Assembly (NCBI GenBank): GCA_027309085.1
Contig: DAIDDL010000011.1
Location: 25,279 to 89,278 of the forward strand
Source of the DNA: Sulfobacillus sp.
GTDB taxonomy: Bacteria > Bacillota > Sulfobacillia > Sulfobacillales > Sulfobacillaceae
Direction: 5' to 3'
DNA: 64,000 bases
The translations under genes were made by a program, and so were the position numbers. The notes beneath the pieces are model-generated. The model had not been told where the DNA came from, ran no database searches, and worked only from the letters and a program-made list of their open reading frames with translations. Positions 21,161 through 32,812 of this stretch are shown piece after piece (the stretch's first letter is position 1; every line of letters begins with the position of its first letter).

Positions 21161-24100
21161 CTATAAGGACAGCAGTTCCCTCACGTCATCTTCTGTCAGG
21201 GCGGACAAGCCTTCGTCATTGGCCTGCACGACCTGGTCAATCAGGTGGCGCTTCTTCTGCTGCAGCTCGTAAATCTTCTCCTCAATGGTGCCCTTGGTGA
21301 TGAGCCGGATCACTTGCACGGACCGTTTTTGCCCGATGCGGTGGGCCCGGTCGGCAGCCTGTTCCTCGACGGCGGGATTCCACCACAGATCGTACAGAAT
21401 GACCGTATCTGCTCCGGTCAGATTTAGGCCAGTCCCCCCCGCCTTTAGGGAAATCAAAAAGATTGGGCGCTTCCCATCATTGAACCGGTTGCAAAGGTCC
21501 AGCCGGTCAGCCACGGGGGTGCTGCCGTCGAGGTAAAAGTAGCTGATTCCCCGCTGGTCCAGTTCGGACCGGATGATGGCCAGCATGGATGTAAACTGGG
21601 AGAAAATGAGCATGCGCTTGTCGGCGCCCATCCCTTCGTCAATGATCTCGAGGAGCTGGTCGAGTTTGCCTGACTCTCCTTGATAGTTTTCCACAAAGAG
21701 TCCTGGGTGGCAGCATATCTGCCGCAACCGTGTGAGTCCAGCCAATATTTTGAACCGGCTCTTGTGAAAGGTCTCGACAGACAGGTCGCGGGCGGTTTCT
21801 TTACGCAACTGGGCCAGGTATGCCAAATAGATCTTCTTCTGCTCCACCGCCAAGTCTGTCGTGTTCACTGTCTCAATTTTTTCAGGGAGCTCCTTCAGCA
21901 CATCCTTCTTGAGACGCCGCAACAGAAAGGGGCGGACGCGCCGGGCTACAATCTCGGGCGGGAGCTGCGAGAATTCTTCCCGACCACCAAACAGCGCAGG
22001 GAATACCGCATGAAAAATTGACCAGAGGTCGTCGAGGGAATTTTCCACCGGAGTGCCCGTCAGCGCAAAGCGCTGGTCACTCTTCAGGTCGAAAATGGCC
22101 TGGGCTGTTTGCGTCGCATGGTTTTTGATGGCCTGGGCCTCGTCCAGAATGAGCGTGTGGAAACGCTGTGAGGAATACGTCTGCAGGTCCCGGCGAAGCA
22201 ACGGATATGAGGTAATCAGCACATCATACTCCCGGGACCGCTCCAAGAGAGCCGCCCGTTGGCTGCGGGTGCCTGCGATGACAGCAGACTTCAAGCTAGG
22301 AGCAAACTTGTGAATCTCACTCTCCCAGTTGTAAACCAGGGACGCTGGGCAGATAATCAGCACGGGGTGCTGGAACGGGCCACCCTCCCGTTCCGAGAGC
22401 AAAAATGCGATGCTTTGCAACGTCTTCCCCAGACCCATATCGTCTGCTAAAATACCTCCGAAGCCGTAATGGGCAAGCGTTTTCATCCACTGAAATCCGT
22501 AGCGCTGATAGTCGCGCAGCACATGGCCCAGAGTTTCAGGCGCCTGAAAGTCCAAATTGTCCGGATTGCGCAGATTGTCAAGCCAGCGGCGCAGAGACTT
22601 TCCTAGTTTAACCGCCATCTGCCGGTCGTCGTGTTCGATGAGGGCCAGCGCCCGGTGCCCAGGAAGCTTTAGGGAGCCGCCTTCCAGCTCCTTGCTGTTC
22701 AGGCCCATGTCTGCCATCAGCTCGCCAATCTGCTGAAACGCCTCATCACTGAGGGGGACGAAGGCCCCGTCCGGCAGACGGTGGTAGGGACGCTTCTCAA
22801 TGATGGCTGCCAGTACTTGCTGTATGTCAGAAGGACTCAGGTCGCCAAAATCGAAAGAGACGTCCAGCCACCCGGTTCTCTCATCAATCTCCAGTCTGGC
22901 TTTTGGCTGGTAGCTGGAAGGTCCCACCATAGAGTGCACGGCCTGCGTCACAAACACCTCGGCCGACTGCTCAAGAAGGGGTAGGACATTGAAGAGAAAT
23001 TGGTATAATTGCCTTTCTCCCTCCAGATACAAAACTTGACCCCTCGCAGTGAATCCCGCCTGCAGGAGCGCGGACAGGATGCGTTCCTCCCCTTCGGAAT
23101 CGCGCAGCAGAATGAGTCCTTCTTCACCGCGCCGGTCCGCCGGGGCCAGCGCGTCCAGAATGCTCTCGCCGTAGACGTAGCGAACCTTCACACTGAGCTC
23201 GTCTTCGTCCCGGTCAAGATATAGGCGCACAATAAGCGGGTGATCGGCAATGCGGTTGGTTACCTCCTTTGCGATGCGCACCGCCGCGAACGATCTCAGG
23301 TCGGGAATGACCGTGTCCATTACCGCTTCGAGATCGGATCCCGACATCTCTATGGGTTCGTGAGAGGATGCCATAACCACTGTCTTCAGTTCAGCGATTC
23401 TCGCCAGGTGGATCTCGTCGAGGGGGTAAATGCTTCCCTCAGCCAGGGCGCAACGGTAAGCCTCCATGATCATCAGCCGGTCCAGCCCCTCAATCTGCAG
23501 GGCGTATTGCCCGCCCGGGGTGCTCTTCACTACGGCGGTCATGGGAAGACCGGCAGGATCTGGGTCAAGGGCCCACTCGCCCCCGTGTTCGTAAGCCACA
23601 ATTGTGTTGGCTCCGCGCAGAAGGGAAATTAACGATTCCCAGGCGAACGGGGGAATGTACAATCTGCGGCTGTTCGTGCCGCCGTATCCAGAATACCCGC
23701 TGTAGCCCCGGGAGCCGTAGGGGTTGAAAGTCTTTTGGTAGAAGCTGTCCTGGCGCCTTACGTCCTGCAGTGCTTCGACGACTGCCAAATCCTTGGGTTC
23801 GAAGGCATGAAGCGTTGGGTCAAAGGTGAACCGCTTGCTGAATACGTGAGGTTGCCCATTCGAAGTCTTCTGTAAAAACTCCTCAATGTTTTGCACCACG
23901 TACAAGCGGTCTAAGCCAACTTTCATTTCAATGAGAAAAATTCCAGACCGGTAGTAGGTTGCCGACGGGCGCAGAATGAATTGCGCCTGCAGGCGCGGTT
24001 GGCCAGGCCGAATTGCCAGCGGTGGCTGCAAACGTGAGGTCCGGGCGGTGTTGCGGTAAATAGCCAGCAGACGCTGTGCCGCCGAGGGTGCCGCGGGTTT

Positions 24101-24472
24101 GACTGGGACCACCGGTGCCGCGGGCACCGGTGGTTTAACGGCCGGGGCAGGCTTTGGCGCCGGTGTCACGGCTGGCGGCTTGGGATGACCGATATTGGGC
24201 CTGACGAGATTGAGCAGCACCGCCACGATGTGCTTGCACCACGAACCCGTTACAAAAGCTGGACATTCACACGCGGCGTCGATCTCTCCGTTGGGGAGAG
24301 CCACAATATCAACGGTGTACAGGACCCGGCCTTGCACTTTGCCAATCCAGTGCGAGCTGTCCTGTTCATCTTGCTGGCATGACGTAACGCGCTGCTGCTG
24401 GTAGTAGGCCTGCCCCCTTTGAAAGTACGTGTTGCCTGCTCGGCGTTTAATGACTTCAGGTGTTAATACCAT
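21161..24472 (-). CDS. SWIM zinc-finger SNF2-family helicase/translocase
   Basis: 1103 residues from ATG 24472, with GAGGGAG upstream. An N-terminal SWIM finger (C68, C70, C79, H81; CECPAFVTGSWCKH) is followed by a Pro/Ala linker (about 92-130) and a long middle region of the bacterial SNF2-associated type. The C-terminal half is the two-lobed ATPase motor: LADDMGLGKTLQSIAFLL (Walker A), LILDEAQAIKN (DEAQ box), LTGTPVENSLDDLWSIF, LISLKAGGTGLNLTGAD, and the last motif DRAHRIGQKRSVQV. Such proteins move on double-stranded DNA and remodel protein-DNA complexes. It is the last gene of a leftward six-gene run with two BREX-type ATPases and a Rad50/Mre11-like pair, so a shared DNA-processing job is likely. 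Confidence 0.93.
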   Translation of the reverse strand: MVLTPEVIKRRAGNTYFQRGQAYYQQQRVTSCQQDEQDSSHWIGKVQGRVLYTVDIVALPNGEIDAACECPAFVTGSWCKHIVAVLLNLVRPNIGHPKPPAVTPAPKPAPAVKPPVPAAPVVPVKPAAPSAAQRLLAIYRNTARTSRLQPPLAIRPGQPRLQAQFILRPSATYYRSGIFLIEMKVGLDRLYVVQNIEEFLQKTSNGQPHVFSKRFTFDPTLHAFEPKDLAVVEALQDVRRQDSFYQKTFNPYGSRGYSGYSGYGGTNSRRLYIPPFAWESLISLLRGANTIVAYEHGGEWALDPDPAGLPMTAVVKSTPGGQYALQIEGLDRLMIMEAYRCALAEGSIYPLDEIHLARIAELKTVVMASSHEPIEMSGSDLEAVMDTVIPDLRSFAAVRIAKEVTNRIADHPLIVRLYLDRDEDELSVKVRYVYGESILDALAPADRRGEEGLILLRDSEGEERILSALLQAGFTARGQVLYLEGERQLYQFLFNVLPLLEQSAEVFVTQAVHSMVGPSSYQPKARLEIDERTGWLDVSFDFGDLSPSDIQQVLAAIIEKRPYHRLPDGAFVPLSDEAFQQIGELMADMGLNSKELEGGSLKLPGHRALALIEHDDRQMAVKLGKSLRRWLDNLRNPDNLDFQAPETLGHVLRDYQRYGFQWMKTLAHYGFGGILADDMGLGKTLQSIAFLLSEREGGPFQHPVLIICPASLVYNWESEIHKFAPSLKSAVIAGTRSQRAALLERSREYDVLITSYPLLRRDLQTYSSQRFHTLILDEAQAIKNHATQTAQAIFDLKSDQRFALTGTPVENSLDDLWSIFHAVFPALFGGREEFSQLPPEIVARRVRPFLLRRLKKDVLKELPEKIETVNTTDLAVEQKKIYLAYLAQLRKETARDLSVETFHKSRFKILAGLTRLRQICCHPGLFVENYQGESGKLDQLLEIIDEGMGADKRMLIFSQFTSMLAIIRSELDQRGISYFYLDGSTPVADRLDLCNRFNDGKRPIFLISLKAGGTGLNLTGADTVILYDLWWNPAVEEQAADRAHRIGQKRSVQVIRLITKGTIEEKIYELQQKKRHLIDQVVQANDEGLSALTEDDVRELLSL

Positions 24473-24649
24473 GCGGCTCCCTCACTCCTTGATTTACACG
24501 GAATCCTATAAAATGAGCAACAACCCATGGAACGATTTCTGTAAGACCTGCGTGAAGGCAGCAGGTCATCTCCGCTATTCCCCCTGCGGGGTCCATGCCG
24601 GCGTTGCGTTGCCGGAAGATCTCAACCCATGGCTGCAAGCTCGCCACCT
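24473..24649 (-). other. Spacer between BrxD-like and SNF2 genes, with hairpin
   Basis: The only wide gap (177 bases) in the downstream part of the operon. A perfect 7-bp hairpin (24545-24551 with 24561-24567, 9-base loop) could attenuate or process the transcript. A 63-residue frame from GTG 24647 also bridges the gap and overlaps the helicase start, but it has an odd composition and no recognisable motif, so a protein here is doubtful. Confidence 0.35.
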
Positions 24650-25918
24650 TTATTCCAGAAAGTCTGCGCGGTATACATTGCCCGAACCTGGGGCGTTGCC
24701 GTCCACGTGCGCACCCTCAGTCGGGCCCGTCTTCCCCTGGTCTTCTGCCAGGTCTTCGTCTTCTACCTGCCCGATGCTTAAAGACGGGTCGACTCCGTAT
24801 TGGAACCAGGTATCCAGAATTGTCAAGCTCAGGCGGACTACCGTGCGCAGGCGGGTATCTTGGGCTGGAGCCAAATTGCGGATCAGGCGGATTAGGTCCA
24901 GCGGCTCTTGTGGCGGCTGCCACGAATAGGCATCACGGTGAAAACTGTAGATTTGCATAATCAACTGGTCCACCTGGTCCCGCGACAGCGGCTCAAGGGA
25001 TTTGGCTTCGACTAGAGCTCCAATTCCCTCTTGGCAAAAGGCGGCGAGATGCTGCTCTTTCGGGCGGGACTGCAGCCAACTGGGGGCAGCAGCCTGGTCA
25101 TTGCGCTGATAAATGACATCCGTGAGAAAGTTGGACGCTAGCGCCCACACGGTCAGGAGGTGCGGGGTGGCTAGGTTGAGGAGGCGGCCAATCGAGGCGT
25201 AGGCCCGACTTCTGGCGCCCCGCCCAAACTTGCCAATCAGTTCCACCTCGTCAAACAGAATCAGCCACCCCTGGTAGCCAGCGCGGTGGATCAGCCAGTC
25301 GACAAGGCGCAGATATTCAAACGCTTCCTCCCGCATCACCGTCCGTTCGAGCTTCAACGCCCGCGAAAAATTGCCGCGGTAAATCCGCTTCAGTTCAGCG
25401 GCGGTGAGAAATGTGCCGGAAATATCCTGTATCAGCTCGGGATATCCTTCGTTATGGGCCACCAAATTGTCCAAAATGGTCATGACCCGCGCCGAAAATT
25501 CCATGGCGCGCGCCTCCGCTAAAATTTGGGGAGCTTTCAAGCCCTCGTCGACAATCGACTCAATCCCTGCCAGCTTCCCGCCTGGCACGAAGGTGCTGTC
25601 AATAATTTTGGGATAAATCTGGTCTAATCGGTCCAACGGCGTTTCCTTGCTGAGACTGATATAACTGACCACCCAGTTGCGATCGGCGGCCGAGCCCCAA
25701 AACGACTGGAGAAGATGCGTTTTACCCTCGCCGTAGTGGGCCCGGATCACCATGGCGGGAAATTTTGGACGACGAGCGTCCTCAGTTTGCTCCATGAGCC
25801 GGTTCAATTGGGTGATCTGGCTTTCACGCCCGAACACGATCGCTTGGGCCATTTCCTGATACGGGATGCCAGACCGCAGTCCTTCCACGACGCGCCGGAG
25901 CCGCTGTGGGTCGTCCAT
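24650..25918 (-). CDS. DUF2791 P-loop ATPase, BREX BrxD-like
   Basis: 422 residues from ATG 25918, which directly follows the stop (TAA) of the previous gene. A Walker A loop (HYGEGKTHLLQSFW, residues 61-74), a SLSKETPLDRLDQIY segment and a clean Walker B (GWLILFDEVELIGKFG, about 218) match the DUF2791 ATP-binding proteins found in BREX-related and other defence or DNA-repair islands. The C-terminal 50 residues are acidic and probably disordered. These proteins are AAA-like and thought to act on DNA or restriction complexes. The closely linked neighbour upstream encodes a second P-loop ATPase, so the two may form a hetero-oligomer. No pglX, pglZ or brxL gene lies beside it. Confidence 0.85.
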   Translation of the reverse strand: MDDPQRLRRVVEGLRSGIPYQEMAQAIVFGRESQITQLNRLMEQTEDARRPKFPAMVIRAHYGEGKTHLLQSFWGSAADRNWVVSYISLSKETPLDRLDQIYPKIIDSTFVPGGKLAGIESIVDEGLKAPQILAEARAMEFSARVMTILDNLVAHNEGYPELIQDISGTFLTAAELKRIYRGNFSRALKLERTVMREEAFEYLRLVDWLIHRAGYQGWLILFDEVELIGKFGRGARSRAYASIGRLLNLATPHLLTVWALASNFLTDVIYQRNDQAAAPSWLQSRPKEQHLAAFCQEGIGALVEAKSLEPLSRDQVDQLIMQIYSFHRDAYSWQPPQEPLDLIRLIRNLAPAQDTRLRTVVRLSLTILDTWFQYGVDPSLSIGQVEDEDLAEDQGKTGPTEGAHVDGNAPGSGNVYRADFLE

Positions 25919-27109
25919 TTAGTTGTCCCCCTCCAATGCGTCTTTCAGTTGCCGTGCGATGCGGCGGCGGACCGGCGACCAGTCCAGTTCCACGCTGCGG
26001 GGCACCACGTCCGCCTCGCCAGTCCGCACTCCTTGAAAATGCCGGGCGGCCCAGACTCTCTCCACGGTGTCCAAATCTTCATGATTGACGGACCACAGGC
26101 GGTCCCAGTCGATTAAGTCATTGAAGCGGTTAATCTGTGTCATAAAGATTTCAGACTGAATCCGGGACCACAGAGCCGGGTAGGAGGGGAATCCCAGACG
26201 GCCGTCCTCGAACAGCTCAGGAGAAGCGGCCAGCATCACAAACAAGTAGGCGGCGTGGTGGCTGTCATCGATCAGTTCCCGCCACATTTCATAAGCTTGA
26301 TCGCGGGCGGTCCGGGTGTAATAGGGCACATCATCCCGGCGCTGGCGGGTGGCCATCACCTGGCCATTGTCAATGAGCACAGCCAGGCCATGGTAACCTG
26401 CCGCATGACAGAACACAGCCAGGGAGAACAGCATGGCCCGGGCGTTGCGGCGGTCAATCACGCCTGGCACCCCCAGAGACTTTTTCTCGGCGGCGGTAAT
26501 CCGCTCGCCCATCAGCCAGCGTTCGGTCACGGGGTTCTCGCTGCCTTCCGGTTCCATGGCCCGCAGCATCCACTGCCGCATCACTCCCCCCCACTGGGCG
26601 TCGAGGCCTTGCCGGCCAATCCAGCGGTCTGACGCGTCCCGCACATCGCTGTGCAAAATCGAGGCGTTGCGTCCCCTGGACTGTTGCGCCCACCCCCAAA
26701 ATTCCCTCGGGCTGCCAGGGAAGTCGTGATAACCGAGCTCGTCCTGGATCATGCGCACTGCAGCTCTCCCAACCAGGTCGCTCCAGGCTATATGCTGCGC
26801 CACCACCTTATACAGTTCGTCGATGGCAGCCAGACGGGTGTGAGTGCCGTCGATGAGAACCGCCTGGTAATCCAGATCGCCGAGGGTCAAGGCCAGATGC
26901 CGCAGAAAGTGGGTTTTCCCCGATCCGGGCCGTCCTTGAACGAATTTGAGTTTGCCTGCCCCCTGGTCAACAAATCCCGCCAAATACCATTTTTGGATGA
27001 AGGCCTCCATTCCTGCCGGATCTACGTACGTATCGCGAATGGCCGCGTCATCCAGCATTTCGGATGACGGGTCGTTGGCAAATTGCCACAGGGTTTCATT
27101 GAGATTCAT
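25919..27109 (-). CDS. Second DUF2791-like P-loop ATPase with degenerate Walker B
   Basis: 396 residues from ATG 27109 (MNLNETLWQF), with GGAG 9 bases upstream; this start overlaps the preceding gene by 14 bases. Walker A is GRPGSGKTHFLRHLAL (59-74). The likely Walker B strand reads GLAVLIDNGQVMA, with Asp but no following catalytic Glu, whereas the next gene has the canonical DEVE. The remainder is alpha-helical with many Trp and Arg residues. It resembles the BREX-type ATPase superfamily but only in the nucleotide-binding core. The degenerate site suggests a binding or regulatory subunit paired with the BrxD-like protein encoded immediately downstream. Confidence 0.75.
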   Translation of the reverse strand: MNLNETLWQFANDPSSEMLDDAAIRDTYVDPAGMEAFIQKWYLAGFVDQGAGKLKFVQGRPGSGKTHFLRHLALTLGDLDYQAVLIDGTHTRLAAIDELYKVVAQHIAWSDLVGRAAVRMIQDELGYHDFPGSPREFWGWAQQSRGRNASILHSDVRDASDRWIGRQGLDAQWGGVMRQWMLRAMEPEGSENPVTERWLMGERITAAEKKSLGVPGVIDRRNARAMLFSLAVFCHAAGYHGLAVLIDNGQVMATRQRRDDVPYYTRTARDQAYEMWRELIDDSHHAAYLFVMLAASPELFEDGRLGFPSYPALWSRIQSEIFMTQINRFNDLIDWDRLWSVNHEDLDTVERVWAARHFQGVRTGEADVVPRSVELDWSPVRRRIARQLKDALEGDN

Positions 27110-27938
27110 CAGCGGTCTCTCCTTCGGGCACGAGTTCCAACGACCCAAAGGCCGTTTTAGTTCCCCCGGGGACGGGAATCGTGACGGCGTCCGCGGCCCG
27201 CCGGCCTTCCCCTAAAACCAGGTGATACCCTCCATAATGGAGGGTCTGGAGGCGCACCCGGTAGAGGTCAAAGGCAAACTGGCTGAGACTGTAGCCCCCG
27301 GGTCCAGTCCGGATGGTCATCACCTCATAAATCTGCTTGAGCGGCAGGGCGCGGATCAGCGCCTGGTTGGGGTGTTCGGCCTGCCATTCATGGAGGACGA
27401 TGTGATAGGCCCGCACCAGGGCTTTGAGGAATTGGTTGGCATTGAACCGTTCCCGGTACAGCTTGTCAATTTGTCCCAAGACTTGCAGGGCGGCGGCTTT
27501 CGGGTCCAGCGCCCGGACGGTCCGGTTGTTGATTAAGACCAGGTCATGGGCAAAGTCGACTTTCACCTCCAAGGGAAACACCCGAAACGATGGAAATTCG
27601 CCATCCACCGCGTGGCCGCCTTTCTGGCACTCCCGGATAAAGACTGCGCTCCATGCCACGCTGTCCGTTTCGTATCGGCCCAGTTGAAAGGCCTCAAGAC
27701 TCTTGGCTATCTCGGCGCCCAGCGAGAGGGCCTGGGCATTTTCGCCAAGCAGTTCCTCCACCTGCTTGCGAAGCTCGGTCAGATTGAGCAGTCCGGCTTG
27801 TTTGGCCAGCTTTTTGGATCGTCCCATGCGCTCAGCCAGCTTGGCGAGCTCTTCAATTTGCGGTTCAATATTCTCAGTGAACTGATCCCAACTGTTTTTC
27901 ACGCCGCTATTCTCTTGGCGCTCTCCGACTGATTCCAT
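27096..27938 (-). CDS. Unrecognised 280-residue protein of the helicase/ATPase operon
   Basis: Start ATG 27938 follows GGAAGGAG. The N-terminal 90 residues are helical and charged (NIEPQIEELAKLAERMGRSK, then LTELRKQVEELLGEN), probably a coiled coil. Residues about 95-260 look alpha/beta, with VFPLEVKVDFAHDLVLINNR, FNANQFLKALVRAYHIV and YSLSQFAFDLYRVRLQTLHY. No catalytic motif, zinc site or membrane segment is seen. Its stop overlaps the start of the first P-loop ATPase and it lies 56 bases after the Rad50-like gene, so it is an integral part of the operon, perhaps an adaptor linking the nuclease pair to the ATPases. Function unknown. Confidence 0.75.
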   Translation of the reverse strand: MESVGERQENSGVKNSWDQFTENIEPQIEELAKLAERMGRSKKLAKQAGLLNLTELRKQVEELLGENAQALSLGAEIAKSLEAFQLGRYETDSVAWSAVFIRECQKGGHAVDGEFPSFRVFPLEVKVDFAHDLVLINNRTVRALDPKAAALQVLGQIDKLYRERFNANQFLKALVRAYHIVLHEWQAEHPNQALIRALPLKQIYEVMTIRTGPGGYSLSQFAFDLYRVRLQTLHYGGYHLVLGEGRRAADAVTIPVPGGTKTAFGSLELVPEGETADESQ

Positions 27939-27994
27939 ATATTGTCTCCTTCCATTGCCTGTTAGTGGATTGTTCAGGGTGGCAGTCCCCTCAT

Positions 27995-30900
27995 TTAAGT
28001 CCTGACAGGCTGCTGCGGTCCCAGATAATGCACGTGCAGATGGTCATGCGCCGCAAGCTGTTGAGCTTGGTCGACTACCGACTGGTGGTGAGTAAAATAC
28101 AGGATCTGTGTCTGCTCACCCAGTTCGTGCAGAACTTCCAAGGTGGCCTGGGTCCTGGCGTCATCAAAGTGCACAAGAATATCATCCATTACCAGGGGCA
28201 GAGGCTCAGAACCCGCCAGATGCTGTTCGACAAAAGCCAGGCGCAAGGACAAGAAGAGTTGGTCGCGGGTGCCGTCGCTGAGCTGGAATACACGGCGCCT
28301 GCTGCCGTCTGCATGAACAGCAAGCAGATACGGCGCGCTGCCATCGTATTCCACCAGCAGTTCTTCGTACTGGCGCAGGGTCATCCGCCGGAACAACTGT
28401 CCCGCACGGTGTAAAATGGCGGATTCATTGCGCTCGCGGAACTCCTCGATGGAACGCTCAAGCAGCCGTCGAGCCAATTCGACCCGGAGGTACTCGTTCC
28501 ACAGCCGGTCCACCTCAGCCAAATGCTGCTGCCCCTGCTGTGCGAATGCGGCGGCCGCTTCATGGGTTTCATTAATGTGCGCGAAGGCCGTCTGCAGCGT
28601 CTGCAGGTGGTCCTTTTCCCGCTCAATGTCTCCCCTGATGCCATCCTGCCTCCCTTCGAGCACGCTCTTTTGCGACTCTAAAGTGTCTGGATCTCCCAGC
28701 TCTTCCAGGGATTGGGCAATGGCGTCCACGCTCATGCCGTCAGCGGCCTGCCGGATTCTGCGTTCCTGGGAGAGTTTCTCCTCAGCGAGCTTGCGCCGCT
28801 GGCGCGATATTTCAACGTGGGCGCTCAATTGGGCAAGGTCCGCGGCATGACACTGCGCTTGGTAGTGCTGCAGCTGTTGCGCGATCAGTCCCGCTTCTGC
28901 CCCGTGCTGGTCCGCTTCACTGAGCAGGCGCGCCTGCTCAGCTTCGATACTATGCAAGAGTTGCTCCGTCTCCCTCGCATTGTGCATGCGCTGGCGGGCT
29001 TGGCGCACCCACGACTCCACAGAGGCAGCCTCGGCCAGGTTCTCACCGAGCTGCTCGGCGACGGCTAGGGCCTGCCGTTCAAATTGGTGGCAGATCTCTT
29101 CGCTGGTGCGGATAGCCGTCTCCATCTGCTCTATCTCTTGCACTCCGCGAAGCAGCTCCCTGAGGTGCTGGGAGTAGTGCAAGGCGTCCTGCGGCCTTGG
29201 GGGCAGAGATGGATAGGCGCGGATCACGGACTCCCACTCTTCGTCTTGAAGCTGCAATTGCTGCTCCCACTTGGTTAGAGACTGGGTCCGGGCGTGGATC
29301 TTTGTTTCGAGCACGCGCCTTTGATCCCAGAGCGTGCGGCGTTTCAGATCCCGCTCGCCCATCATCCGCGCGTAGTTCTCGCACTGTTCGAGCGCGTCGT
29401 TCAGGGTGAGCGCGTCCCCCACTTGACAGTGTGCCTCTTGGGCCGCGGTGGCTAGGGCCTGCCGCAATTGGGCCTGGTGCTGGGTCAATTCGGCCCTATC
29501 CGCCTCGCTGGCGTCCAGTTCCCCGAGCATCAACACCAAGGGGGCATGAAAGGCGCTCATCCATTCCCGCATTTCTCCCGGGCTTTTGGGGAGGATTCCG
29601 CACGGCTGCCATTCCCCTGCCCATAACGTCTCAAGCTGTGAGAACTGGATGTCAAGGGATTGGCGCCTCTTGGCATTGTCTGCCAGAGCCTGCCTGGTCT
29701 GGTCCTGTTTCATCAGCAACAAGGCCCGGTTGGCTGAGCGGTCGGCTTCCCGCCGCATAGCGTCCACCACCTGGTCAGCGTTCGCCAAGCACTGGGCAAA
29801 GTCGTCAGCTAAATCCTGCGGGGCGACCCCCTCAGGCAGCACGTGGTGCAGCCACGACTGTTTGACGCGGGTCCAAGCATCTTCTCTCAGGGACCGGGCC
29901 TCAAGCAGGTCTGATGGCACCGGCACCTCCCCCTGCAGTTCCAACACCTCTAAATCATTCGCCAAAGACACCGCTGCCGCTCTCAGAGTCTGATGGTCGC
30001 GGCGGGCTTCACTCCGTTCCTGTTCCAGGCTTGCCCACTGGCCAGCATAACGTTCTACCGTGTCGTGAAGCGGCAACGGCAACATCTTAAGACCGCGAAG
30101 GGAGCCTGCATACAGTGTTTGTTGGCGAAGCCGCTGGTCTATTGCCTGCTGTTTGAGCTCAATGTCCCGGTCGGCCTGGGCGATCTTCCCCTGAACATTG
30201 CCCTCCTCACGGATTGTTCGGATCAGCCCGCTGAGATGCGACACGTCATAAATGGGCCCGAGAGCCTCTAAGTCCTTCTCCACCTTGGCAGAGTCCTCGA
30301 TGAGCTCTTCGCACTGCGCCTGTTCCAAGGCGTAATTCGCACGGGCGCCAGCGATTTCCTCGGCGAGGGTGTCAATGCGGTTGAGTGCCGTCAGAGGCAG
30401 TCGGAGCTGGTCGATCTGCGGCCAGAAAGTGCCTGGCGACAACTCCTGAAGGCGCTGTTCAGTTTCGGCCTTGCGCTTTTGCCTCTGTTCCCGGGCTGCC
30501 GGGAGATCGGTGTCCCGCAGGGACAGAAACTGCATAAGTCCTTCGCTCAGCCTCTCAATCGAATCGGCCAGGGACGTTGCCTGGGGATCTGGATGGAGTG
30601 CATGAGCCCGTTCTGCCTGCCTCCGGCACTCATCCTCTGCGCGCGCCTGGCTCTGCGTGTTTTCTCCGTGCTTTTTGAGCAGTGTCAGAATGTTTTCCTC
30701 GTCATGCGGCGAGACAGTGGCCGGCCCCAACTCCTCAAGCTCTTGCTTCATGGCCTGCCATTCGCTAATCATCGGGCGCACCCGCAAGAGGCGGGTCACC
30801 TTCTGCCAGGCGGCGTCTACGTCGGCTAGTTGGCGTTCTAACTGTTCGGCGCGCTGCTCGCTCAGAAAAATCTCCTGCCGCTGCCGGTGCCATTCCTCCG

Positions 30901-31510
30901 CCCGCAGGCTGGACTGCTTGAGGCTTTTTTGGGTGTCAATAAAGGATCGCCACTGCTTATTCAGCTCTTTGGCAGAGCGCGCATTAAAGCTCGGGTCGAG
31001 GAGCTGCGCGGAGCGGTCTGCCAGACTGCCCAGCAGTTTGGTCAGGTACTGGACGCCCCCCCCGGCTTCAAAGAGAGAAATACCAGCCTGGCCCTGCGAG
31101 TCGAGCAGGCTCTGGCCGCCTGCCCGCAGGCGCTCGTGGTCAAACCCAAACAGCAGCGCAAACGGCTCGCGGGTATATCCTCCAAGATATCGCGCCAGCG
31201 CGTCTTCCGACAATTCCGGGTGGTCAGCGTCTGTGAGGACCAGCCGGTTGTAGCGGCGTTTGCGCTCAATGCGGTACACGGCCCGGTCCGAGCGCTCGAT
31301 GACCCCCTCGATTCGGGAGCGGCTGTCGTAATGGTCGCGGAAGGATTCTGCAATGGTCCCCCCAAACAGCAAGTCCATGATGAGGGTCAGCAGGGTGGAT
31401 TTTCCCGTCTCGTTGGGTCCGTGCAAGATGTGCAGCCCGCCGTGATCCAAGTTCAGCTGGAAGGCTTCATAATGCAGCACCTGGCGGACAGCAATGCTCC
31501 GTATTTTCAC
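27995..31510 (-). CDS. YhaN/Rad50-like SMC-type ATPase
   Basis: 1171 residues from GTG 31510, overlapping the nuclease stop by four bases. Walker A is GPNETGKSTLLTLIMD (31-46). The C-terminal half-site has the ABC signature LSDGTRDQLFLSLRLAF, Walker B LPLVMDDILVHFDDAR and the His-loop YFTHHQ. About 900 residues of coiled coil lie between, rich in Gln, Arg and Glu. No CxxC zinc hook was found at the coil apex, so dimerisation must differ from Rad50/SbcC; this matches the AAA_27/YhaN type. With the YhaO-like nuclease it should form an ATP-gated DNA end-processing complex. Confidence 0.92.
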   Translation of the reverse strand: MKIRSIAVRQVLHYEAFQLNLDHGGLHILHGPNETGKSTLLTLIMDLLFGGTIAESFRDHYDSRSRIEGVIERSDRAVYRIERKRRYNRLVLTDADHPELSEDALARYLGGYTREPFALLFGFDHERLRAGGQSLLDSQGQAGISLFEAGGGVQYLTKLLGSLADRSAQLLDPSFNARSAKELNKQWRSFIDTQKSLKQSSLRAEEWHRQRQEIFLSEQRAEQLERQLADVDAAWQKVTRLLRVRPMISEWQAMKQELEELGPATVSPHDEENILTLLKKHGENTQSQARAEDECRRQAERAHALHPDPQATSLADSIERLSEGLMQFLSLRDTDLPAAREQRQKRKAETEQRLQELSPGTFWPQIDQLRLPLTALNRIDTLAEEIAGARANYALEQAQCEELIEDSAKVEKDLEALGPIYDVSHLSGLIRTIREEGNVQGKIAQADRDIELKQQAIDQRLRQQTLYAGSLRGLKMLPLPLHDTVERYAGQWASLEQERSEARRDHQTLRAAAVSLANDLEVLELQGEVPVPSDLLEARSLREDAWTRVKQSWLHHVLPEGVAPQDLADDFAQCLANADQVVDAMRREADRSANRALLLMKQDQTRQALADNAKRRQSLDIQFSQLETLWAGEWQPCGILPKSPGEMREWMSAFHAPLVLMLGELDASEADRAELTQHQAQLRQALATAAQEAHCQVGDALTLNDALEQCENYARMMGERDLKRRTLWDQRRVLETKIHARTQSLTKWEQQLQLQDEEWESVIRAYPSLPPRPQDALHYSQHLRELLRGVQEIEQMETAIRTSEEICHQFERQALAVAEQLGENLAEAASVESWVRQARQRMHNARETEQLLHSIEAEQARLLSEADQHGAEAGLIAQQLQHYQAQCHAADLAQLSAHVEISRQRRKLAEEKLSQERRIRQAADGMSVDAIAQSLEELGDPDTLESQKSVLEGRQDGIRGDIEREKDHLQTLQTAFAHINETHEAAAAFAQQGQQHLAEVDRLWNEYLRVELARRLLERSIEEFRERNESAILHRAGQLFRRMTLRQYEELLVEYDGSAPYLLAVHADGSRRRVFQLSDGTRDQLFLSLRLAFVEQHLAGSEPLPLVMDDILVHFDDARTQATLEVLHELGEQTQILYFTHHQSVVDQAQQLAAHDHLHVHYLGPQQPVRT

Positions 31511-32769
31511 GGCTGGCCCCCTCCTCTTGCCAGCATCGCCACCAGCACATCGCGGGCATCGGACACCAAGTCCCTGACCTCCTCGGCAGATGCGATGACG
31601 GTGGAGCCTTCGGAGCGGAGGTAATCCGGCATGCGCATCTGGATTGTCTGCATCTCGCTGGCGAAAAGCTCAAGAAACTCGGGACGGACTTCTGTCTGCT
31701 GAATAATGCGGTCCAGTTCCGAAATGGCGTCTGTGCGGTCAGGCAAAGACTGGCCGGTCTCTTCGCCTTGGGTATCAAATATCACTTTTTCCACCCAAAT
31801 TCTGTCGATGGCACTTTGCTGGGCGGCATTTACAATCTCATTGAGGTAATATTCCGATTCGGCCAAGAGGGAGCCGTGCAGGGCGGTTTGGCCGGTCAGC
31901 CGGATGCGGAGGGCCAAAGGGTAGCCGGGGTTGGCGGCGGTGGTTTGTTGGAACACAGACATCACGCGGCCAACCACATCCTCCGCACGGAGGGTCCCCG
32001 TCAAGTCCACCTCACACAGAGCCCAGCGCAAGACGTCAAGAGAGCGGTGCTGCAAATCAATACGGCCGGAATCGACCGTGACCAGAGTGCATCCCTTGTC
32101 CCCGGTTTCACGGATGTGCCGCCCCTGAAGGTTGCCTGGATACACAATGCACGGACTGGTGTCCCGAATCACCTGCCTTTTGTGCACGTGCCCCAGGGCC
32201 CAGTAATCGTATCCCTTGGCAGTCAGGTCGTGGACTGTACAGGGGGCGTAGGTCTCATGTCCTTCGTGTCCCTCGAGGGACGTGTGCAGCACGCCAATAT
32301 TGAAATACCCCGGCACTGGCAACGGGTACTGGGGAACCAGGTTTTGCGTCACTATGCGGTCCTTGAATCCCTGACCGTGCAGCGCCACCTGGAGGTCGTC
32401 GATGACGAAGGTCTCGGGCTGGTCACTAGAAAAGCGGTGCACGCCACTCGGCAGCAGCAGTTTGCGGCTGATGGTGCTGGCGGCGTCGTGATTGCCGCTC
32501 ACTATATAGACCCTGATATCGTGGGCGGTCAGCCGCGTCATGCAGGCATTGAAAAATAGTCCGGTGGAATAGTCCTGCCAATCGCCGTCAAATACGTCGC
32601 CAGCGATCACGAGAAACCGCACGTGTTCCTCGATACACAGCTCCACCAGGTTGTCGAGGGCGCGCCGGGTGGCAGAACGGATGGCCTCTGCCGGAGCGTC
32701 CTCGCGTAAGGACAGTCCGCGAAGCGGGCTGTCTAGATGCAGGTCAGCGCAGTGAACAAATTTAAACAT
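31507..32769 (-). CDS. YhaO/SbcD-like DNA repair exonuclease (metallophosphoesterase)
   Basis: 420 residues from ATG 32769, with GGGGAGG 7 bases upstream. All calcineurin-type metal-site motifs are visible: CADLHLD (D9, H11), AGDVFDG (D58), SGNHDA (N93, H94), VLHTS and ALGHVHKRQ. The C-terminal 190 residues carry the accessory domain typical of YhaO/Mre11-type enzymes. It should cut DNA ends or hairpins in partnership with the Rad50-like protein encoded by the overlapping next gene. It is the first gene of the operon, with an extended -10 promoter just upstream. Confidence 0.93.
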   Translation of the reverse strand: MFKFVHCADLHLDSPLRGLSLREDAPAEAIRSATRRALDNLVELCIEEHVRFLVIAGDVFDGDWQDYSTGLFFNACMTRLTAHDIRVYIVSGNHDAASTISRKLLLPSGVHRFSSDQPETFVIDDLQVALHGQGFKDRIVTQNLVPQYPLPVPGYFNIGVLHTSLEGHEGHETYAPCTVHDLTAKGYDYWALGHVHKRQVIRDTSPCIVYPGNLQGRHIRETGDKGCTLVTVDSGRIDLQHRSLDVLRWALCEVDLTGTLRAEDVVGRVMSVFQQTTAANPGYPLALRIRLTGQTALHGSLLAESEYYLNEIVNAAQQSAIDRIWVEKVIFDTQGEETGQSLPDRTDAISELDRIIQQTEVRPEFLELFASEMQTIQMRMPDYLRSEGSTVIASAEEVRDLVSDARDVLVAMLARGGGQP

Positions 32770-32812
32770 CAAATACCTCCCCATCCGTCAAAATCCGGGA
32801 AAATCTTCTCCA

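Follow-up and report, generated by a model that had tools for sequence, protein, structure and literature searches.

A co-inherited triplet of two BrxD-like ATPases and a small protein in Bacillota and Spirochaetota, a candidate loader for DNA motors

In a 64,000-nucleotide stretch of a Sulfobacillus sp. genome (hereafter the window; GenBank assembly GCA_027309085.1, contig DAIDDL010000011.1, positions 25,279 to 89,278), six minus-strand open reading frames (ORFs) form one leftward run that encodes a Mre11-like nuclease, an SMC-type ATPase, a 280-residue protein (p280), two BrxD-like ATPases (ATP1 and ATP2) and a SWIM-SNF2 ATPase (Table 1). The window genome, labelled G000, comprises 4.49 Mb in 172 contigs, is 99% complete and carries the window on contig C22. 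The run is tightly spaced, with overlaps of 4 and 14 bases, one abutment of 0 bases and two gaps, one of 56 and one of 177 bases, and coordinates and sequence agree here with a first-pass annotation made from the letters alone. Pfam likewise agrees with its domain calls (nuclease, SMC ATPase, two DUF2791/BrxD-type ATPases and SWIM-SNF2), and the 280-residue protein for which it had recognised no family has no match over cut-off in Pfam, PADLOC or NCBIfam. Two gene boundaries need qualification: position 32769, previously given as the end of the Mre11-like ORF, is an internal ATG in a frame that reaches 32784, and the ATP1 ORF as listed begins at a TTG at 27148, with its PF10923 score taken on the frame from that TTG. 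A promoter scan returned 7 sites (3.7 ± 2.2 expected), one of them on the coding strand, and decided co-transcription neither way. The guanine-plus-cytosine content of the six genes (0.571–0.604) resembles the values in the flanks (0.566 and 0.598), and thus gives no sign of recent import.

Table 1. Features of the six-ORF run, in window coordinates.
Feature	Position	Strand	Matches and remarks
SWIM-SNF2 ATPase	21161–24472	minus	PF04434 SWIM, 26.8 bits (cut-off 19.6); PF00176 SNF2, 214.1 bits; PF00271 Helicase_C, 91.5 bits; PF08455 SNF2_assoc, 260.8 bits
Gap of 177 bases, at the place of BrxL after ATP2 in related loci	24473–24649	minus	No BrxL here
ATP2, BrxD-like AAA+ ATPase	24650–25918	minus	PF10923 BrxC/BrxD, 82.4 bits (cut-off 22.2)
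ATP1, BrxD-like AAA+ ATPase	25919–27109 (ATG start)	minus	PF10923 BrxC/BrxD, 92.7 bits (cut-off 22.2)
p280, signature protein of the triplet	27096–27938	minus	No Pfam family over cut-off
YhaN-like SMC-type ATPase	27995–31510	minus	AAA_27 (Pfam), 133.6 bits
Mre11/YhaO-like phosphoesterase	31507–32784	minus	Metallophos (Pfam), 47.1 bits; neighbour of YhaN

The conserved unit of this run is its inner triplet, p280–ATP1–ATP2, which the first-pass annotation had not singled out. Of 254 relatives found, the 80 best named loci (hereafter the named loci) were examined by profile search for the three proteins; they share contigs with the family and class genome sets used below, so counts from these sets are never to be added. 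The three genes are contiguous and on one strand in 75 of the 80 named loci, which come from Bacillota and Spirochaetota; the five others either start at a contig edge (L137 and L192) or have incomplete or missing members (L184, L189 and L191). Among 154 genomes of the class, p280 was present in 41 and ATP2 (at E 1e-40) in 38, with 37 genomes common to both. Occurrence is patchy: in a sample of the phylum, p280 was present in 17 of 398 genomes, and ATP2 is in 19 of 34 genomes of the family and in two of eight of one genus. Over 67 loci, the pairwise distances for p280, ATP1 and ATP2 are correlated with one another (r = 0.949–0.976; the largest value in 999 permutations was 0.205). Contiguity, co-occurrence and correlated distances together identify the triplet as a patchy, co-inherited module. 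Apparent decay of the module was seen in two genomes: a stop breaks the ATP2 gene of G002 (contig C33), and in G029 (contig C94) p280 is interrupted and ATP2 has no match.

The two ATPases differ at their catalytic motifs. ATP2 has an intact Walker A (GEGKTH in the window) and a Walker B DE, the latter in 96 of 96 aligned rows; ATP1 has a Walker A and is missing the Walker B glutamate (DN in the window, and never DE in 71 rows of the named set). From these motifs, ATP2 is predicted to hydrolyse ATP, and ATP1 to bind it without hydrolysis. Both score below the 350-bit cut-off of the BrxD equivalog NF033438 (ATP1, 69.9 bits; ATP2, 55.0 bits).

For p280, the predicted fold has a helical hairpin at residues 16–83 (coiled coil), followed by an alpha/beta part and, towards the C terminus (about 164–274), a winged-helix-like domain. 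Among the families that the fold lists cover, entries for the origin recognition complex (ORC) and Cdc6 make up 24 of the 50 matches listed for this C-terminal part, a weak similarity for which homology is not claimed. Searches with two p280 members gave nothing over cut-off in Pfam (the best match of the window p280 was PCRF, E 0.17) and no family in PADLOC 2.0.0 (no match for the window p280 at E 1); 52 members searched against NCBIfam 20.0 gave only three stray matches with unrelated names (E 0.002–0.0075; none at E 1 for the window p280). Comparison with the sequences of solved structures returned 35 at E 1, all at profile positions 8–111, the best (2.5e-05) being a designed coiled coil. 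According to a 2026 survey of bacteriophage exclusion (BREX) systems, BrxC carries a winged helix-turn-helix, an alpha+beta region, a second winged helix-turn-helix and a coiled coil (PMC12839542). The idea that BrxC has been split, with p280 as its C-terminal portion, found no support in a profile comparison (probability 0.2%, with a BrxC alignment of only 3 rows).

Relatives of the triplet are often found beside a DNA motor of one of two kinds. BrxL lies directly after ATP2 on the same strand in 13 of the 80 named loci (the L153 copy is cut by a contig end), and a superfamily 2 (SF2) helicase lies within 1.3 kb of the triplet in 45, divergent and upstream in 34 of these; no locus has both. 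Each of three BrxL examples scanned matched PF13337 and PF20442 over cut-off and PADLOC BrxL at E 1.3e-99 or better, and the one SF2 helicase scanned has ResIII, Helicase_C and ERCC3/XPB domains and matches PADLOC PbeA at E 5.7e-66. On an ATP2 tree of 93 rows, 65 of them labelled by partner (21 BrxL, 44 SF2), a single partner change suffices (shuffled mean, 18.1), and the mutual exclusivity of the two motors thus does not represent many independent events; judged from this tree, the switch was probably single and old. The tree omits duplicates (L043, L044 and L055) and long branches (L167 and L156); a further tree omits L136 and L138, whose ATP2 was missed by ORF calling, and alignment A4 omits L165, which has masked bases. 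Neither BrxL, nor an SF2 helicase, nor SNF2 accompanies the triplet at 21 of the 80 loci, 10 of which have at least 2.2 kb on both sides; another DEAD-box helicase lies upstream at one of the 21 (L158). Perhaps another motor partner is the 1,027-residue helicase upstream of p280 in G038 (L057:12561-15644), which is of the AAA_11/AAA_12 (UPF1-like) type and carries a topoisomerase zinc ribbon and, scoring below cut-off, a PLD-like stretch.

These components recall several known systems. In agreement with the first-pass annotation, the window locus is not BREX, because it has neither PglZ (PF08665 matches twice in the genome, on contigs C82 and C77) nor BrxL; no PglX-type methyltransferase was found among the six proteins by Pfam, a scan that covered these six and not the genes on either side. 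In the BREX survey, BrxD is called uncharacterised, is classed as an ORC–Cdc6 AAA+ protein and is proposed to load BrxHI, and BrxL is classed as an AAA+ protein of the minichromosome maintenance (MCM) family (PMC12839542). The BrxD–BrxHI dyad of Type-2 BREX resembles the triplet in that a BrxD-type ORC/Cdc6-like ATPase and proposed loader is genetically tied to a DNA helicase (PMC12839542); the triplet differs in having two diverged ATPases, one with an altered Walker B, together with p280, and its relatives' motors are BrxL or a PbeA/XPB-like SF2 helicase. The BrxL that follows ATP2 is a homologue of that of Type-1 and Type-4 BREX, but stands behind a BrxD-like pair and p280. The SF2 helicase of the Clostridial triplets matches the motor part of PbeA, a PADLOC name (in one example, residues 2–405 align to 252–627 of 672), but is without the first 250 model positions. 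Eukaryotic loading of MCM by ORC/Cdc6 offers an analogy only, with its ORC-type ATPases, winged helices and MCM-type motor.

A further likeness is to Shango, which consists of SngA, SngB and SngC, with a TerB-type SngA and a BrxD-like ATPase beside a helicase. The SngB model in PADLOC, for which no cut-off is given, scores 61.4 bits to ATP1 and 34.1 bits to ATP2, both below the BrxD model. In contrast to Shango, p280 shows neither a TerB domain by Pfam nor any PADLOC match at E 1 (the presence of an SngA model in PADLOC is unconfirmed), and there is no SngC-type helicase among the six proteins; four of five BrxD-type rows with a Walker B DE adjoin a DEAD-box helicase, unlike ATP1. Two loci have a Shango-like pair directly upstream of the triplet (L053:1358-5642 and L056:2884-8924), in which a DEAD-box helicase is joined by a BrxD/SngB-type ATPase that has a Walker B DE and, in L053, scores 405 bits to PF10923.

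We propose that p280, ATP1 and ATP2 would form a split ORC/Cdc6-like loader, in which ATP2 would hydrolyse ATP, ATP1 would only bind it and p280 would hold DNA via its predicted winged helix, and that this assembly would place a DNA motor (in relatives, BrxL or the SF2 helicase) on invading DNA or activate it there. To this reading of the co-inherited module, in which heteromer formation, motor loading and an anti-invader role are inferred, we give a probability of roughly 0.5. A role in defence, for which the odds appear somewhat better than even, is suggested because the ATPases and motors match models of defence systems (BrxD, BrxL and PbeA) and because the distribution is patchy. More tentatively, the triplet and its partners may amount to a widespread, so far undescribed anti-invader system of Bacillota and Spirochaetota that resembles eukaryotic origin licensing, in which one active and one ATP-binding-only ORC-like ATPase, with p280 as winged-helix adaptor, would put an interchangeable motor (MCM-like BrxL, XPB/PbeA-like SF2 or, here, perhaps SWIM-SNF2) onto foreign DNA, without a methylase or PglZ.

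Three observations weigh against defence. No ATP2 matches were found in viral contigs, plasmids (E 1e-20) or phages (E 1e-5). Ten proteins near nine loci without a known motor were mostly transporters, metabolic or envelope proteins or a regulator, with one DEAD-box helicase and one protein without a family. A defence-island comparison by PADLOC families (at 1e-15) gave 112 families for 126 of 238 near-core genes, 76 for 126 of 189 far genes and 25 for 126 of 129 genes of YhaN/SNF2 loci; it counts families rather than proteins, its far set comes from the same stretches and its third set from other taxa, so no conclusion is drawn. The first two of these observations would also suit a triplet with a part in chromosome maintenance, be it replication restart or repair, where the ORC-like loader would bring a helicase to damaged DNA of the host cell itself, as would the repair-type neighbours in the window, YhaO/YhaN and SNF2. 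However, the patchy presence of ATP2 and p280, within one genus as across the phylum sample, is unlike that of core maintenance genes, and the models matched by the parts originate from defence systems; we consider a maintenance role unlikely, though not far-fetched.

A second alternative takes the triplet and SNF2 as the working unit in this genome, with SWIM-SNF2 having replaced BrxL as the motor and YhaO/YhaN a bystander. SNF2 is on the same strand as the triplet and 177 bases away from it, at the place that BrxL has in related loci; the window ATP2 falls among the BrxL-linked rows of the tree, and PF13337 has no match in the whole window genome. In the family set of 34 genomes, 19 of which have ATP2, PF13337 occurs in 10; nine of these carry ATP2, and in eight BrxL follows it on the same contig. 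The neighbourhood is probably present in a second assembly: p280 (99%) and SNF2 (98%) of the window species are both recorded with a longest contig of 7,687 bases, from which we infer that the arrangement is probably no assembly error. Another SNF2 adjoins the triplet in L165, the only such case among the 80 named loci, but it runs convergently and belongs to another subfamily, the DUF3670 type; weak SNF2 relatives 3–6 kb from the triplet in L205 and in class loci L066–L068 were excluded from this count. Against the pairing, full-length SNF2 (≥46% identity) occurs in 13 of the 34 family genomes and together with ATP2 in eight, yet the two share a contig only in the window genome and lie on different contigs in the other seven. 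In the surroundings read for eight other family genomes with ATP2 and no BrxL match, nothing consistent stands at BrxL's place, and none has SNF2 beside the triplet. The best SNF2 relative in another species (58%) is on a 59,901-base contig and the nearest p280/ATP2 relatives are on a 43,677-base contig, possibly of the same genome. In G007, the triplet contig breaks off within BrxL, and a second contig, which ends close to a BrxL copy, has SNF2 about 15 kb from that copy; this SNF2 may belong to the same stretch as the triplet, though not adjoining it. The window SNF2 itself falls under the NCBIfam equivalog cut-offs for ZorD of Zorya (204.8 of 1,500 bits), DpdE of Dpd (54.2 of 500) and DrmD of DISARM (119.6 of 950 and 70.4 of 610). 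SWIM-SNF2 may stand in for BrxL in the window genome, but a dedicated triplet–SNF2 unit seems doubtful.

The first-pass annotation had read all six genes as one standalone DNA-processing or anti-invader system, with the ATPases and helicase serving the Mre11/Rad50-like nuclease by feeding it DNA. Their tight same-strand packing fits this, and the outer genes show some affinity elsewhere: in G009 and G010, of another genus, SWIM-SNF2 and YhaN converge with about 50 bases between them, and Mre11 comes next (L222:5478-12530 and L223:2498-9551), and in G006 a single ORF separates SNF2 from a 74-residue YhaN end that borders a contig edge. All three genomes, however, have the triplet on a contig other than that of SNF2/YhaN; the window triplet thus sits between genes that adjoin elsewhere without it, with SNF2 turned round. 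Co-occurrence speaks against a six-gene operon acting as one system: all six genes are together in one of the 34 family genomes, that of the window, and neither YhaN nor Mre11 was found at any of the 80 named loci within the stretch examined for each. YhaN was found in 14 family genomes (at E 1e-20; full-length in 13, if G006 with its copy divided between two contigs is included) and Mre11 in 15 (at E 1e-15). Full-length YhaN and ATP2 are both present in seven, on the same contig in the window genome and on different contigs in the six others; draft contigs limit such contig-sharing tests, and most other triplet contigs extend several kb on both sides. Contrary to the earlier picture, YhaN and Mre11 also occur without ATP2, in six family genomes (G013, G016, G017, G018, G019 and G027, three of them assembled in three or fewer contigs). 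A joint six-gene function is accordingly very improbable, and what stands of the original proposal is that a DNA-processing module is likely; the part that recurs is the inner triplet. The Mre11-like gene is beside YhaN in all 12 loci read that have Mre11, and the two most likely make up a repair pair of their own, placed upstream by happenstance. This pair resembles YhaO–YhaN/SbcCD-type pairs in having a metallophosphatase and then a coiled-coil ATPase with a 4-base overlap, but scores 64.8 bits to the SbcD model TIGR00619, under its 77.65 cut-off; the name YhaO/YhaN is that of the first-pass annotation, and the AAA_27 match fits it.

The window genome also holds a BREX-like locus on C82 (L234:1669-14427), with BrxC (PADLOC, 1,030 bits), an Eco57I/N6-methylase (PglX-like), PglZ and a helicase best matched as DISARM DrmD (991 bits), that is, a BREX core with a DrmD-type helicase. 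That the triplet serves this locus in trans as an accessory is scarcely credible: PglZ matches strongly (E ≤1e-44) in six family genomes (G000, G003, G006, G012, G031 and G033), five of which carry ATP2, but five or more of six would arise in about 0.15 of chance draws from 19 of 34, the exception (G012) has a PglZ cut by a contig end and no ATP2, and 14 of the 19 ATP2-positive genomes are without a strong PglZ match. The second PglZ-domain gene (about 600 residues; L235:2-9618, on C77) is in a same-strand run with genes of 748, 950 and 901 residues, the last SNF2-like, and this run is perhaps another defence locus.

Literature searches, mostly of open-access coverage, found no description of the triplet, which is apparently undescribed; its ATPases and motors are themselves of known kinds. 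As a minimal natural module, in which two BrxD-like ATPases and p280 are linked to either BrxL or an SF2 helicase with no PglZ in the set, it would make the loader idea put forward for BrxD–BrxHI (PMC12839542) testable with four proteins. In addition, p280, which has no family over cut-off in the members scanned, provides a marker gene for finding such loci.

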